DNA from: Microcella putealis
Lineage (GTDB): Bacteria > Actinomycetota > Actinomycetes > Actinomycetales > Microbacteriaceae
Reading direction: 5' to 3'
Assembly (NCBI RefSeq): GCF_004216575.1
Contig: NZ_SGWW01000005.1
Coordinates: forward strand, 1-64,000
Length of the DNA: 64,000 nucleotides
The first letter of the stretch is position 1; each line of letters opens with the position of its first letter. Below are positions 37,199 to 40,681 of this stretch, piece by piece. Below the pieces are notes generated by a model, which did not search any database, was not told the DNA's origin, and saw nothing but the letters and a program-made list of their open reading frames with translations. The translations under genes and the position numbers were made by a program.

Positions 37199-37273
37199 TG
37201 GTGGGCGATACTGGGATCGAACCAGTGACCTCTTCCGTGTCAGGGAAGCGCGCTACCGCTGCGCCAATCGCCC
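37199..37273 (-). tRNA. tRNA-Val (anticodon GAC)
   Basis: The cloverleaf is complete: acceptor GGGCGAT/ATCGCCC, D arm, anticodon arm CTTCC-CTGACAC-GGAAG with anticodon GAC (codons GTC/GTT), and T arm with GGTTCGATCCC. Discriminator A is followed by an encoded CCA (37199–37201). It is the last of three minus-strand tRNA genes. Confidence 0.95.
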
Positions 37274-37320
37274 GCTAGTGCGGTGGAGTTTCTCCGCGGT
37301 AAAACTTGTCTGGCAGTGTG

Positions 37321-37391
37321 AGGTGGCGACGGGATTCGAACCCGTGTGCACGGCTTTGCAGGCCGCTGCCTCGCCTCTCGGCCACGCCACC
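37321..37391 (-). tRNA. tRNA-Cys (anticodon GCA)
   Basis: The acceptor stem is GGTGGCG/CGCCACC with discriminator U. The anticodon loop CTGCAAA gives anticodon GCA, and the T arm has GGTTCGAATCC. The 3' CCA is not encoded (CAC follows). It is the middle gene of the Gly–Cys–Val cluster. Confidence 0.95.
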
Positions 37392-37426
37392 GTGGGCGGT
37401 GCCCCACTACCGAGAGGCCCCACTCG

Positions 37427-37498
37427 AGCGGATGACGAGATTCGAACTCGCGACCCTCACCTTGGCAAGGTGATGCGCTACCACTGCGCCACATCCGC
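37427..37498 (-). tRNA. tRNA-Gly (anticodon GCC)
   Basis: The acceptor stem is GCGGATG/CATCCGC with discriminator U. The anticodon arm TCACC-TTGCCAA-GGTGA gives anticodon GCC, and the T arm has AGTTCGAATCT. CCA is not encoded. It is the first gene of the minus-strand cluster; the promoter should lie between it and the opposing tRNA-Val gene. Confidence 0.95.
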
Positions 37499-37630
37499 GT
37501 GCCCGCCGGTCTCCCGTTGGGCGTGAGATGACTCTAGCGAATCGATCGGCGATGCGCCAAACCGGCGAGGCCGGGCGTGTCCCACCGGGCGCGCTGGCGG
37601 GGCGTCGAGTTGTGGCAAGATGGTCGTCGC

Positions 37631-37706
37631 GGGCGATTGGCGCAGTTGGTAGCGCGCTTCCTTCACACGGAAGAGGTCATCAGTTCGAGTCTGGTATCGC
37701 CCACCA
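37631..37706 (+). tRNA. tRNA-Val (anticodon CAC)
   Basis: The cloverleaf has acceptor GGGCGAT/ATCGCCC and anticodon arm CTTCC-TTCACAC-GGAAG with anticodon CAC (codon GTG). The T arm has AGTTCGAGTCT, and CCA is encoded at 37704–37706. It shares the acceptor, most of the D arm and the anticodon stem with the opposing tRNA-Val (GAC) gene, so the two probably arose by duplication. Confidence 0.95.
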
Positions 37707-37707
37707 C

Positions 37708-38790
37708 TCACAGCCCCGGTTCGCCGGGGCTGTTGTCGTTTCTGGGAGGGTTCGCGGGCGCAGTCGAGACTCCGCGACGCGCGGCGAGACGCGTCCCGGC
37801 CCCCACAATCGCTCCCCCGCTGGCCGCGACGCCCGTGGCGAGAGCGACCGCCATCACCTGCCCGACCACCTGGCCAAGGCCGCCCGTCGCCGCGAACCCG
37901 ATCCCGTCGGCGAGGAGCCCGACGACAACTCCGCCGGCCGCAATCCCGACGATGAGCCCCGCCAGCGCCCCCCGCAGCGGCGCCCCACTCCCCCGCAGCG
38001 CCCCGCCCGCGAGGCCCGCGGCCACGGCGGTCGCCGCCACGGCGACGGGAACGAGCGCTGGCAACACGAGCAGCACGGCCGCCGACCCGACGAGTGCGCC
38101 GGAGACCGGATCGACCGGGTGCGCGGGGCGTCCGGCGATGCGCACCACGAGCATCCACGAGACGGCGCCTAGAACCGCGCCGACAAGAGCGCCAAGAAGG
38201 ATGCTCGGCGCCGTCTCGGCGGACCGCTCGGACGCGATCGCGCCGGCCGCCACCGCAAGCGTTGCCACGATGACCGCGGCGTTGGGGACGATGGCCCGGA
38301 TCCTGCGGGGCGCATCGTTGCGCGCGGACGCGTCGGACGACCGTCGCCTCCACACCGCGAGGAACCCCAGCGCGACTGCCGCGGGAGCGACCACGCGCGG
38401 AAGTGCACCCCCGAGATCTAACGCCCCGAGCACGCGCTCCAGTACGGGCGGAGCCACCGCAAGCTGCAGCGTCGCGATGAGCGCGACACTGAGCGCGGCG
38501 ACGATGCCTGCCACGACGCGGGCTCCGACCGCGCTACCGCTGCAACGTACGAGACCAGCGACGATCGCGCCCCCCGCGGCGGCGGCACCCGCGACCGCAA
38601 GGAGCCGGCCCACGTCGCTGGTGCCGGCAAGCAGAACGCCCGCCGCGAGCCCCACGAGGGCCGACGCCAGCTCGGCGCCGCCGAACAGCTGGCGTGCGGG
38701 ACGAGACCCGGAGGCTGCCGTCAGCATCACGGTGATCCAGAGCAACACCGGGGCAAGAACGGCGGCCACGACGATGATCGGATCGCTCAC
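37708..38790 (-). CDS. Amt-like membrane protein lacking pore residues
   Basis: This 360-residue, very Ala/Val-rich protein has about ten or eleven hydrophobic helices. By eye it lines up along most of its length with the Amt encoded just upstream: DLGGALPRVVAPAAVALGFL matches Amt YAGGTAVHINAGAAALALAL, VDPVSGALVGSAAVLL matches Amt VGAASGAVAGLVAI, and TGGLGQVVGQVMAVALATGV matches Amt GGDLGQLIVQTIAAFGVLIY. Both pore histidines of Amt are missing here, so it is unlikely to conduct ammonia the normal way. The GTG start at 38790 lies 101 bases past the amt stop, beyond a hairpin. Homology needs profile confirmation; a role modulating Amt is speculative. Confidence 0.7.
   Translation of the reverse strand: MSDPIIVVAAVLAPVLLWITVMLTAASGSRPARQLFGGAELASALVGLAAGVLLAGTSDVGRLLAVAGAAAAGGAIVAGLVRCSGSAVGARVVAGIVAALSVALIATLQLAVAPPVLERVLGALDLGGALPRVVAPAAVALGFLAVWRRRSSDASARNDAPRRIRAIVPNAAVIVATLAVAAGAIASERSAETAPSILLGALVGAVLGAVSWMLVVRIAGRPAHPVDPVSGALVGSAAVLLVLPALVPVAVAATAVAAGLAGGALRGSGAPLRGALAGLIVGIAAGGVVVGLLADGIGFAATGGLGQVVGQVMAVALATGVAASGGAIVGAGTRLAARRGVSTAPANPPRNDNSPGEPGL
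37711..37732 (+). terminator. Rho-independent terminator after tRNA-Val (CAC)
   Basis: CAGCCCCGG (37711–37719) pairs perfectly with CCGGGGCTG (37724–37732) around a TTCG loop, followed by TTGTCGTTT. It begins five bases after the CCA of tRNA-Val. It also overlaps the last codons of the minus-strand Amt-like gene, whose transcript it could end as well. Confidence 0.88.
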
Positions 38791-38825
38791 GGCGGCACCT
38801 CCGTTGTTGTCGCGGGCACACGCGA

Positions 38826-38865
38826 CGGCGGGGCGCCCTCTCGTGGTGAGAGTAGCGCCCCGCCG
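38826..38865 (-). terminator. Hairpin between amt and the Amt-like gene
   Basis: Eleven-base arms CGGCGGGGCGC (38826–38836) and GCGCCCCGCCG (38855–38865) pair exactly, and inner arms CTCTC/GAGAG (38838–38842, 38848–38852) continue the stem. It lies 26 bases after the amt stop and 36 before the Amt-like start. It should end or attenuate the amt transcript, leaving the downstream gene to read-through or its own promoter. Confidence 0.75.
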
Positions 38866-38891
38866 AAGGGGTGGTGCGAAGGGGTGCGGCG

Positions 38892-40109
38892 TTACTTCGT
38901 CTCGACGAAGTCGTACGCCTCGCCACCGTGGATGATCGAGTCGATTCCGGCGACCTCGTCCTCGTTCTTGACGCGGAAACCGATCGTCTTCTCGATCCCG
39001 AGGCCGAGCACGAAGGCGACCACGAACGAGTAGATCAAGACGCCGAAGGCGGCGATCGTCTGCACGATCAGCTGGCCGAGGTCGCCACCGGTGAACAGGC
39101 CGGTGTCGATCGCGAAGAAGCCGAGGTACAGGGTGCCGATCATGCCGGCGACGAGGTGCAGACCGACCACGTCGAGCGAGTCGTCGAAGCCGAGCTTGAA
39201 CTTCAGCTCGATCGCGAACGCGCTGACCGCACCGGCGATGACGCCAAGCAGCAGCGCCCAGCCCGGGGCGAGGTTCGCACAAGCCGGGGTGATCGCGACG
39301 AGACCGGCAACGGCACCCGAGGCGGCACCGACAGCGGTCGGCTTGCCGTCCTTGACCTTCTCGACGACGAGCCAGCCGAGGATCGACGCGGCGGTCGCAC
39401 CGAGCGTGTTGACGATGATGAGGCCGACGAGGCCGTTCTGGCCACCGAACGCCTCAGCGCCCGCGTTGAAGCCGAACCAGCCGAACCACAGCAGCGCGGC
39501 GCCCAGCAGGACGAGCGGCACGTTATGCGGCTTGTGAGCGCCCTTCTCGAACACGATGCGACGGCCGAGAACGAGGGCGAGGGCGAGAGCCGCAGCGCCC
39601 GCGTTGATGTGCACGGCGGTACCACCGGCGTAGTCGATGACCTCGGGCAGGCCCATCAGCTCGCCGAGCGAGTACGCCCAGCCGCCACCCCACACCCACG
39701 CGGCGACGGGGAAGTACACGAGGGTCGCGAAGAGTCCAACGAAGACCATCCAGGCGCCGAACTTGGCACGGTCGGCGATCGCCCCCGACACGAGCGCGAC
39801 GGTGATGATCGCGAAAGTTGCGCCGTACGTCACGCTCACGAGCCCGTCGTTGTCGTTCACCATGCTCATCAGGCCGATGTCAGCAAACGGGTTGCCCGCG
39901 AACTGGAAGGGGCTGTCGACGGCCGACATCGATGCGCCGTAGAGAATCCACAGCACGCCGACGAGGCCGAGCGAGCCGAAGCTCATCATCATCATGCTGA
40001 CGACGCTCTTCGCCTTGACGAGGCCGCCGTAGAAGAATGCGACGCCGGGGGTCATCAAGAGCACGAGCGCGGTGGCCGTTACGGCCCATGCGAGTTCGCC
40101 GGTATCCAT
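38892..40109 (-). CDS. amt: Ammonium channel/transporter Amt
   Basis: This 405-residue, eleven-helix trimeric channel takes up ammonium. The start MDTGELAWAVTATALVLLMT and the signature TPGVAFFYGGLVKAKSVVSM are typical. The twin pore histidines are His167 (GGTAVHINAG) and His318 (DVVGLHLVAG), with WFGWFGFNAG between them. No glnK or glnD follows; a paralogous gene lies downstream instead. A GlnR-type box lies 107–145 bases upstream of the ATG, implying nitrogen control. Confidence 0.95.
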   Translation of the reverse strand: MDTGELAWAVTATALVLLMTPGVAFFYGGLVKAKSVVSMMMMSFGSLGLVGVLWILYGASMSAVDSPFQFAGNPFADIGLMSMVNDNDGLVSVTYGATFAIITVALVSGAIADRAKFGAWMVFVGLFATLVYFPVAAWVWGGGWAYSLGELMGLPEVIDYAGGTAVHINAGAAALALALVLGRRIVFEKGAHKPHNVPLVLLGAALLWFGWFGFNAGAEAFGGQNGLVGLIIVNTLGATAASILGWLVVEKVKDGKPTAVGAASGAVAGLVAITPACANLAPGWALLLGVIAGAVSAFAIELKFKLGFDDSLDVVGLHLVAGMIGTLYLGFFAIDTGLFTGGDLGQLIVQTIAAFGVLIYSFVVAFVLGLGIEKTIGFRVKNEDEVAGIDSIIHGGEAYDFVETK

Positions 40110-40215
40110 TGGGTAGTACCTCTCGAGTTCGGAACAGGGGATGCGACCCGTTCCGTCGGAGGCCTCGTGGTGGCGAAGGTCCCCAGGGTCGCTGTCGAAA
40201 GTGTTGACCCGGGAG

Positions 40216-40254
40216 GTTTCGCCGACAGTGCCGAACGTGTTTCTCGAGTGTTAC
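40216..40254 (-). promoter_or_regulatory. GlnR-type box upstream of amt
   Basis: Read on the minus strand, the order is GTAAC (40254–40250), six bases, GAAAC (40243–40239), six bases, GGCAC (40232–40228), seven bases, GAAAC (40220–40216). The first pair matches the actinobacterial GlnR consensus gTnAC-n6-GaAAC exactly. The second pair is weaker, with one mismatch and one extra spacer base. Position ahead of amt fits nitrogen-limitation activation. The regulator gene is not in the window. Confidence 0.65.
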
Positions 40255-40315
40255 GCGAATCGGCCGCGCGTAAACATCGCGTTTCGGGCAGCCGGATGCG
40301 CGCCCCGGCCTGGAT

Positions 40316-40681
40316 TTAGATTCGCTCGGTATCCGCGGGGTTATCCCGCGCATCCTCGGCGAGCTGATCGGGCACCGTGAAGGCGGCGGGGCGCGCTCCG
40401 GTGAGGTAGCCAGCCCGCGCAAGCGCGAACCCACCGATCGACGAGGTGACGAGTTGTCCGATGATCGCGATGACGCCTTTGATGATGTTTTCGACCGTCG
40501 GGTCGAGAACGAGGAGTCCGACGATGAGCAGTGCGACTCCGAGCCCAGCCGCGGCTGCGATCGCGCAGACGCGGGTGTAGAAGTCGGGGAGTCGAATTAA
40601 CCCGATCGCGCCACTCAGGATGATGAAGGCGCCAACGACGAGCATCGCGTTGCCGACGATGGTCTGCACGGTATCGAGCAT
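40316..40681 (-). CDS. mrpG: Na+/H+ antiporter subunit G
   Basis: MrpG (121 residues) is a small three-helix subunit of the multisubunit Mrp antiporter. Its core SGAIGLIRLPDFYTRVCAIAA is the family signature (the IGLIRLPDFYTR block). Helices follow at about residues 45–65 and 70–90. The ATG overlaps the mrpF stop by four bases. It ends the mrpA–G operon; the gap to amt holds the GlnR-type box and no further gene. Confidence 0.93.
   Translation of the reverse strand: MLDTVQTIVGNAMLVVGAFIILSGAIGLIRLPDFYTRVCAIAAAAGLGVALLIVGLLVLDPTVENIIKGVIAIIGQLVTSSIGGFALARAGYLTGARPAAFTVPDQLAEDARDNPADTERI

Follow-up and report, generated by a model that had tools for sequence, protein, structure and literature searches.

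Does the open reading frame that follows the ammonium transporter gene amt in Microcella putealis encode a second transporter, a partner of the first, or a protein with a task of its own? We addressed this question for the first 64,000 nucleotides of contig NZ_SGWW01000005.1 (assembly GCF_004216575.1), hereafter called the window, in which a frame of 360 codons with a GTG start, here designated the companion, lies on the same strand as amt and downstream of it. The original prediction had placed this frame correctly and had taken its product for an old duplicate of Amt that was freed from transport. By descent the companion is indeed a member of the Amt/Mep/Rh superfamily. As to its function, we consider a stand-alone role as a binder with Amt fold at the outer face of the membrane, probably as a homotrimer and without being tied to the Amt trimer, somewhat more likely than a role as Amt subunit. 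We put the probability of the stand-alone role at roughly 45%, and our gradings throughout are judgements.

There is next to no doubt that companion and Amt share a common ancestor, which becomes evident through orthologues. Compared as single sequences, the two neighbours yielded a BLASTP E value of 19, and the window companion by itself had no PF00909 entry in a Pfam scan up to E 10 and nothing useful in NCBIfam or in a phmmer search against PDB. Searching PDB sequences with profile A1, which comprises 16 companions from Microcella loci, returned nothing. In hhalign, the window companion alone scored 23.0 against Amt, barely above chance (best of 60 column shuffles 22.8); a clade of three rows (window, L019 and L020) reached 30.4 with shuffles at 19.6 or below; and A1 scored 88.9 against A2, the corresponding set of 16 Amts, with 60 column shuffles not exceeding 24.6 and two reversed controls at 11.9 and 11.3. 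This last comparison spans 242 columns with a probability of 97.4 and E 1.2e-11, i.e. the profile link on which the proposed relationship had been staked is present with orthologues, while the window protein alone has no PF00909 match. In 150 genomes of the family Microbacteriaceae, A1 retrieved Amt genes of other genera with E values from 3e-6 to 4e-18. PF00909 in turn matched 3 of the 16 members of A1 at E ≤ 1 (best 1.7e-4), and its cut-off was passed by nine of ten companions tested from other genera (ten of 16 such companions), L082 being the one without a match. A chance likeness of Ala/Gly-rich membrane proteins is ruled out by the shuffles, the reversals, the fold search described below and the fact that the companion profile retrieves Amt genes. 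The alignment by eye on which the prediction relied was correct for its second block (TGGLGQ/GGDLGQ), which is in register with the profile alignment, whereas the first block is off by one residue.

The predicted structure leads to the same superfamily. All 19 Foldseek rows at E ≤ 0.001 are Amt/Mep/Rh chains, and a second structure comparison listed 38 Amt/Mep/Rh entries at Z scores of 22.1-24.4, the best of them (24.4) for AmtB, with about 300-318 residues aligned. The next fold, that of the urea transporters, follows at Z 12.7; this we treat as a shared arrangement only and not as kinship. An unrelated fold, which would have spoken against the duplicate, was not what the searches returned. 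The companion is predicted to have the Amt fold, from a model built from seven sequences and of medium confidence (predicted local distance difference test score, pLDDT, 64.6; predicted template modelling score, pTM, 0.54).

Losses and retentions were counted in 46 companions and 43 Amts. Excluded from the former were L091, which is apparently broken, the partial copies L034, L035 and L109, and extra copies from genera g90 and g97 (L115-L125); A_L085 was excluded from the latter. The second gene of L095 was classed as Amt, and L103, L087, L100, L093 and L099 were classed as companions despite their higher Amt scores (143-271 bits versus at most 87 for the others). The phenylalanine gate (F107/F215) and W148 of AmtB are each found in 43/43 Amts and in 0/46 companions. 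Their replacements vary from companion to companion, and no new widely conserved pore residue was seen among the 46 beyond a Trp that takes the place of F215 in 28 of them. The twin histidines (H168 and H318) are lost to different extents: six companions have both, 13 the first only, four the second only and 23, including the one in the window, neither, with L093 and L099 scored as lacking the first because they have a gap there. In the profile alignment of the window pair, H167 and H318 of Amt are located opposite V133 and L279 of the companion, confirming that the histidines have no counterpart in this protein, and the WFGWFGFN block is replaced as predicted, since its residues W208, W211 and F214 face T177, V180 and G183. 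The suggested check whether orthologues always lack the histidines came out negative, given the six companions with both; the 13 with the first only all belong to Microcella, so that the first His is kept in 13 of the 17 rows from this genus. With the Phe gate and W148 gone and the histidines lost, the companion very likely no longer uses the known transport route with deprotonation of NH4+ and the twin histidines.

Residues of the outer vestibule are kept. AmtB D160, which is described as important for transport and for the vestibule in the accessible part of PMC10433425, is present in 46/46 companions and 43/43 Amts; in the window, companion D125 pairs with Amt D159 at this position. The residue after the S219 position is Glu in 43 companions, Asp in two and Gln in one, the Trp at Amt position 246 is kept in 42/46 and the Gln at position 350 in 36/46, and the window companion retains D125, G128, E188, W212 and Q311. 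At the other end of the protein, the C-terminal regulatory tail is missing: 44/46 companions have a gap at its conserved His and Gly, the His being present in 42/43 Amts. Five companions were inspected, in which the chain ends 16-30 residues past the column of Amt residue 370 and carries no C-terminal signalling domain; in the window, the companion is about 45 residues shorter than Amt. Judged by its residues, the companion lacks the twin-His motif (in the window), the Phe gate with W148 and the C-terminal tail of canonical Amt transporters, and has D160.

Conservation in the companion is shifted to the outer half of the protein, and much of the conservation on the cytoplasmic side is lost. 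The outer half (148 of 274 columns) was labelled according to presumed membrane boundaries of AmtB, which we mapped through an alignment with Amt structures. The mean conservation rank in the companions is 0.571 in the outer half versus 0.413 in the remainder, and 23 of the top 30 columns are outer ones; the Amts have 0.455 versus 0.545 and 15 of 30. None of 273 circular shifts of the labels was as extreme as the companion bias. The outward shift fits the receptor or scaffold role that had been suggested among other possibilities.

The gene is retained by selection, yet it changes fast. In 11 companion pairs, the ratio of non-synonymous to synonymous substitutions (dN/dS; Nei-Gojobori, own script) is 0.19-0.59, with unsure values for three pairs in which dS exceeds 1, and the three closest pairs have 0.19-0.22; for Amt the ratio is 0.02-0.16. 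Over 16 Microcella loci, mean pairwise identity is 41% for the companion and 76% for Amt, and none of the 16 frames in A1 contains an internal stop. Open frames and dN/dS values of this size are the reason why we regard the product as a working protein. A spurious open frame is ruled out by the orthologues, by dN/dS and by the chosen starts, which lie at a similar distance from amt across loci.

The companion is confined to part of one family in the genomes searched. With the window companion as query, 16 of 24 other genomes from the genus gave a match, compared with 0 of 15 genomes from the order. Counted by genus, 18 of 26 Microcella genomes have it (one split across two contigs), three have a partial copy and five have none, namely G007 and G009, in which amt is followed immediately by tRNA-Val, and the incomplete genomes G008, G015 and G017; named species with companion loci are M. 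alkaliphila, M. alkalica and M. pacifica. Our count from profile matches and loci in the 150 Microbacteriaceae genomes gives at least 32 genomes and 20 of 85 genera, which is a lower bound, with PF00909 present in 138 of the 150. Outside the family, none of the 111 order genomes searched with profile A3 (119 genomes in all) showed a companion, at A1 and A3 thresholds that may miss very divergent copies there. All A3 matches outside the family lie in open frames of at least 411 residues except for one 205-residue fragment, and in three genomes the A3 search revealed a pair of long Amt-like frames separated by about 1 kb. When 198 genomes were searched with A1 (E ≤ 1e-10), 21 had a match, 16 of them outside the family, one match each. 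In a quick tree, from which four rows were left out (C_L022, C_L026, C_L032 and A_L019), every companion falls on one side of a branch with a value of 99, as expected from one old duplication. Based on this tree, the shared locus and the lack of finds outside the family, the clade probably goes back to a single old duplication of amt within Microbacteriaceae, which is the simplest account; the old duplicate proposed at the outset is supported by the orthologue-based profile link together with the fold.

Whether the companion depends on Amt can be read in part from their distribution. In 42 of the 46 cases the companion lies directly behind amt; the two genes are about 1.4 kb apart in L073, and amt is missing from the loci L078, L079 and L083. 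That the companion always neighbours amt is not borne out in two genera. Genus g97 has the companion in 26 of 27 genomes, beside amt in 14, distant from it or on another contig in 11, and unplaced in one. In genus g90, seven of eight genomes carry the companion and four of these seven have Amt, while genome G368 has Amt and no companion. No Amt match was obtained in the g90 genomes G175, G367 and G370, all with companion, which are 96% (one contig), 93% (three contigs) and 87% (90 contigs) complete, respectively. The PF00909 search of G175 gave a single match of 9.5e-12, which is the level of the companion itself (7.5e-12), and tblastn detected no clear amt remnant at the loci of these three genomes.

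In Microcella, the companions form one clade (14 rows, branch value 99), but a single clade of the Microcella Amts is rejected (approximately unbiased test, p-AU 0.00066, 18 rows versus 27) in a tree that omitted eight rows, which are tandem or divergent copies of L085, L088, L089, L095, L110 and L111. It follows that amt has been exchanged in this genus while the companion next to it was retained. More than one amt lineage is present at the same Microcella locus, as seen for the window gene and the Amts of L019-L033, L106 and L107. A further candidate role, that of a substitute for GlnK, was rejected: P-II matches occur in 18 of the 150 family genomes, in 8/32 with and 10/118 without companion (Fisher p 0.026), and thus P-II is not rarer alongside the companion, the trend having the opposite direction. 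A P-II family match of 61.6 bits is located at G000:C1:806814-807101, not near amt.

We propose that duplication within Microbacteriaceae gave rise to an old copy of amt, which selection has kept. This copy retains parts of the outer vestibule, i.e. AmtB D160, the Glu behind the S219 position and polar outer-loop residues; it has shed the regulatory tail at the C-terminus, and its cytoplasmic side is no longer well conserved over much of its extent. Binding of ammonium or of some other small solute would take place in the old recruitment pocket, without conduction by the Amt mechanism. The stand-alone role is preferred because of the Amt-free genomes, the companions distant from amt in g97 and the exchange of amt in Microcella. 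A bolder version, according to which the family-wide clade has left transport entirely, now acts as a stand-alone receptor or binder that uses the ammonium vestibule at the outer surface, and is able to outlive Amt, is put forward only tentatively.

Several points weigh against the stand-alone role. Adjacency to amt in 42 of 46 cases is what would be expected of a partner, all 26 g97 genomes with companion also have Amt, and the three Amt-free genomes, incomplete to varying degrees, may reflect nothing but slow loss. It is also hard to see how a binder could signal if its cytoplasmic side is poorly conserved. The outer bias rests on presumed and hand-mapped membrane boundaries and is supportive, not proof; moreover, the difference in bias between companion and Amt was equalled by 11 of 273 circular shifts. 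Confidence in the structure model is only medium, and the quick tree has to be read with caution on account of its long branches and uneven letter make-up.

Second in rank, since the companion persists in Amt-free genomes, is an obligate partnership with Amt, in which the companion would enter the Amt trimer as a non-conducting subunit and tune it, much as RhD and RhCE accompany RhAG in red cells, the lack of a tail altering the co-operative gating of its Amt neighbours. We give this possibility a rather low chance, even though gene order and predicted fold fit it and Amt accompanies the companion throughout g97, be the genes adjacent or not. According to the accessible text of PMC10433425, the AmtB tail possibly mediates co-operativity between subunits, and the accessible part of PMC3832391 discusses mixed trimers of RhAG and RhD and presents models of them. 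The retention of the companion in G175, G367 and G370 and its staying in Microcella while amt was exchanged, which speaks against tight co-adaptation, weaken the mixed-oligomer idea of the original prediction, which we keep as a rival to the stand-alone role.

It is unlikely that the companion conducts without the twin histidines, as a channel through which hydrated NH4+, K+ or some other small solute would pass. AmtB His variants are reported in the accessible part of PMC7447429 to allow channel-like flow of NH4+ and passage of K+, and the invariance of D160 would agree with such an activity. However, the change in the companions exceeds a replacement of His by Ala, since the Phe gate and W148 are gone in all 46 and replaced variably, and the Trp for F215 is the only new pore residue that we saw widely conserved. 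In addition, a K+ leak would be costly, and the same part of PMC7447429 states that a double-His variant of AmtB failed to support growth of yeast on low ammonium. Least probable is a relic under weak selection and in gradual loss, for which the fast change, the upper dN/dS value of 0.59, the apparently broken L091 and the missing companions of G007 and G009 could be cited, but which is at odds with the absence of stops from the 16 frames in A1, many pairs of which differ at half of their residues, with the low dN/dS of the three closest pairs, with retention by 26/27 g97 genomes and with D160 in every companion.

Features of the window locus and positions of variant Amts in other loci
Feature	Sequence	Position	Strand	Remark
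Amt-like companion gene, 360 aa	window	37708..38790	-	GTG start at 38790, stop (included) at 37708
GGAGG ribosome-binding sequence	window	38798..38802	-	8-12 nt ahead of the companion GTG; read from sequence
G+C-rich hairpin, amt/companion intergenic	window	38827..38864	-	folding and comparison of loci
amt, canonical ammonium transporter, 405 aa	window	38892..40109	-	twin histidines H167 and H318 present
tRNA-Val(cac)	window	37631..37706	+	convergent with companion
tRNA-Gly, tRNA-Cys, tRNA-Val(gac) cluster	window	37199..37498	-	beyond companion and tRNA-Val(cac)
Glu-variant Amt	L088	5349-6629		
Glu-variant Amt	L089	3739-5025		
Glu-variant Amt	L110	1940-3301		
Glu-variant Amt	L111	2779-4116		

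The neighbouring gene was identified as amt by PF00909 (E 9e-107), TIGR00836 (E 7.8e-112) and PDB 1xqe (E 4.1e-78). The companion starts 101 nucleotides downstream of its stop codon, and Mrp antiporter genes (MNHE, MrpF and MnhG by Pfam) are located upstream of amt in the window genome. The strong hairpin between the two genes has an equivalent at the same place in 14 of 15 other Microcella loci that were folded; L025 is the exception, where the arms are present and fold differently. By our reading, it also occurs in 9 of 11 loci from other genera. It is not listed by a terminator scan, which requires a T run, and no promoter-like site was found within positions 37500-40400. The hairpin may separate the expression of amt from that of the companion. 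An open frame of 482 residues runs antisense to amt (38871-40319, plus strand) and is probably a shadow frame due to the high G+C content.

Of 39 companion loci scanned, 33 have a gene for tRNA-Val(cac) within the fetched stretch (at most about 4 kb off), in most cases with the Gly-Cys-Val cluster, and this tRNA gene accompanies the companion also at the loci without local amt (L078, L079 and L083; two genera). The companion frames of L031 and L082 overlap a tRNA-Val gene on the opposite strand (ARAGORN), and some frames (among L025, L031, L032, L082 and L091) end in RWAIPDSN.

How does the companion compare with known systems? With bacterial AmtB (PF00909) it shares descent, the order of blocks, the predicted fold and D160, and with the neighbouring Amts the Glu after the S219 position, the Trp (42/46) and the Gln (36/46). 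It differs from AmtB in lacking the Phe gate, W148 and the tail, in the partial or complete loss of the twin histidines and in a much faster rate of change. Sensor Amts, such as Kuenenia Amt5 and Shewanella Amt1, resemble it in their Amt fold and in that the role proposed for them is sensing and not uptake (for Amt5, accessible part of PMC10433425). Unlike the companions inspected, however, Amt5 carries a signalling domain (same source). Fungal Mep proteins with Glu in place of the first His likewise depart from the twin-His motif, but Glu occurs at this position in 0/46 companions, which also lack the Phe gate. The accessible part of PMC7447429 calls the twin-His motif highly conserved and names the Glu of fungal Mep proteins as its only variation. 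In our set, Glu stands at the first twin-His position in 4 of 43 Amt rows (L088, L089, L110 and L111), in each case in one of two tandem full-length Amts, from four small-genome relatives; these bacterial genes thus carry a variant that is described as fungal only in that part of the source.

Literature searches, whose coverage left out most subscription papers and preprints, brought up no description of such an Amt companion. Within one bacterial family, the companion forms a natural series that ranges from both histidines through one to none, lacks the Phe gate, is found mostly at a single locus and remains under selection; such a series would allow the roles of D160 and of the outer vestibule to be tested apart from the known conduction route. 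A further comparison is with RhD and RhCE of red blood cells, which lack the pore residues, arose by duplication of an ammonia channel whose fold they share and are held to be non-transporting; members of the Amt/Mep/Rh family are trimers, and RhAG-RhCE-ANK1 (7uzq) is among the Foldseek rows for the companion model. RhD and RhCE accompany RhAG, whereas the companion is kept in three genomes without Amt match and has a separate, bacterial origin. Taken together, the companion may represent a bacterial counterpart of the Rh blood-group proteins.
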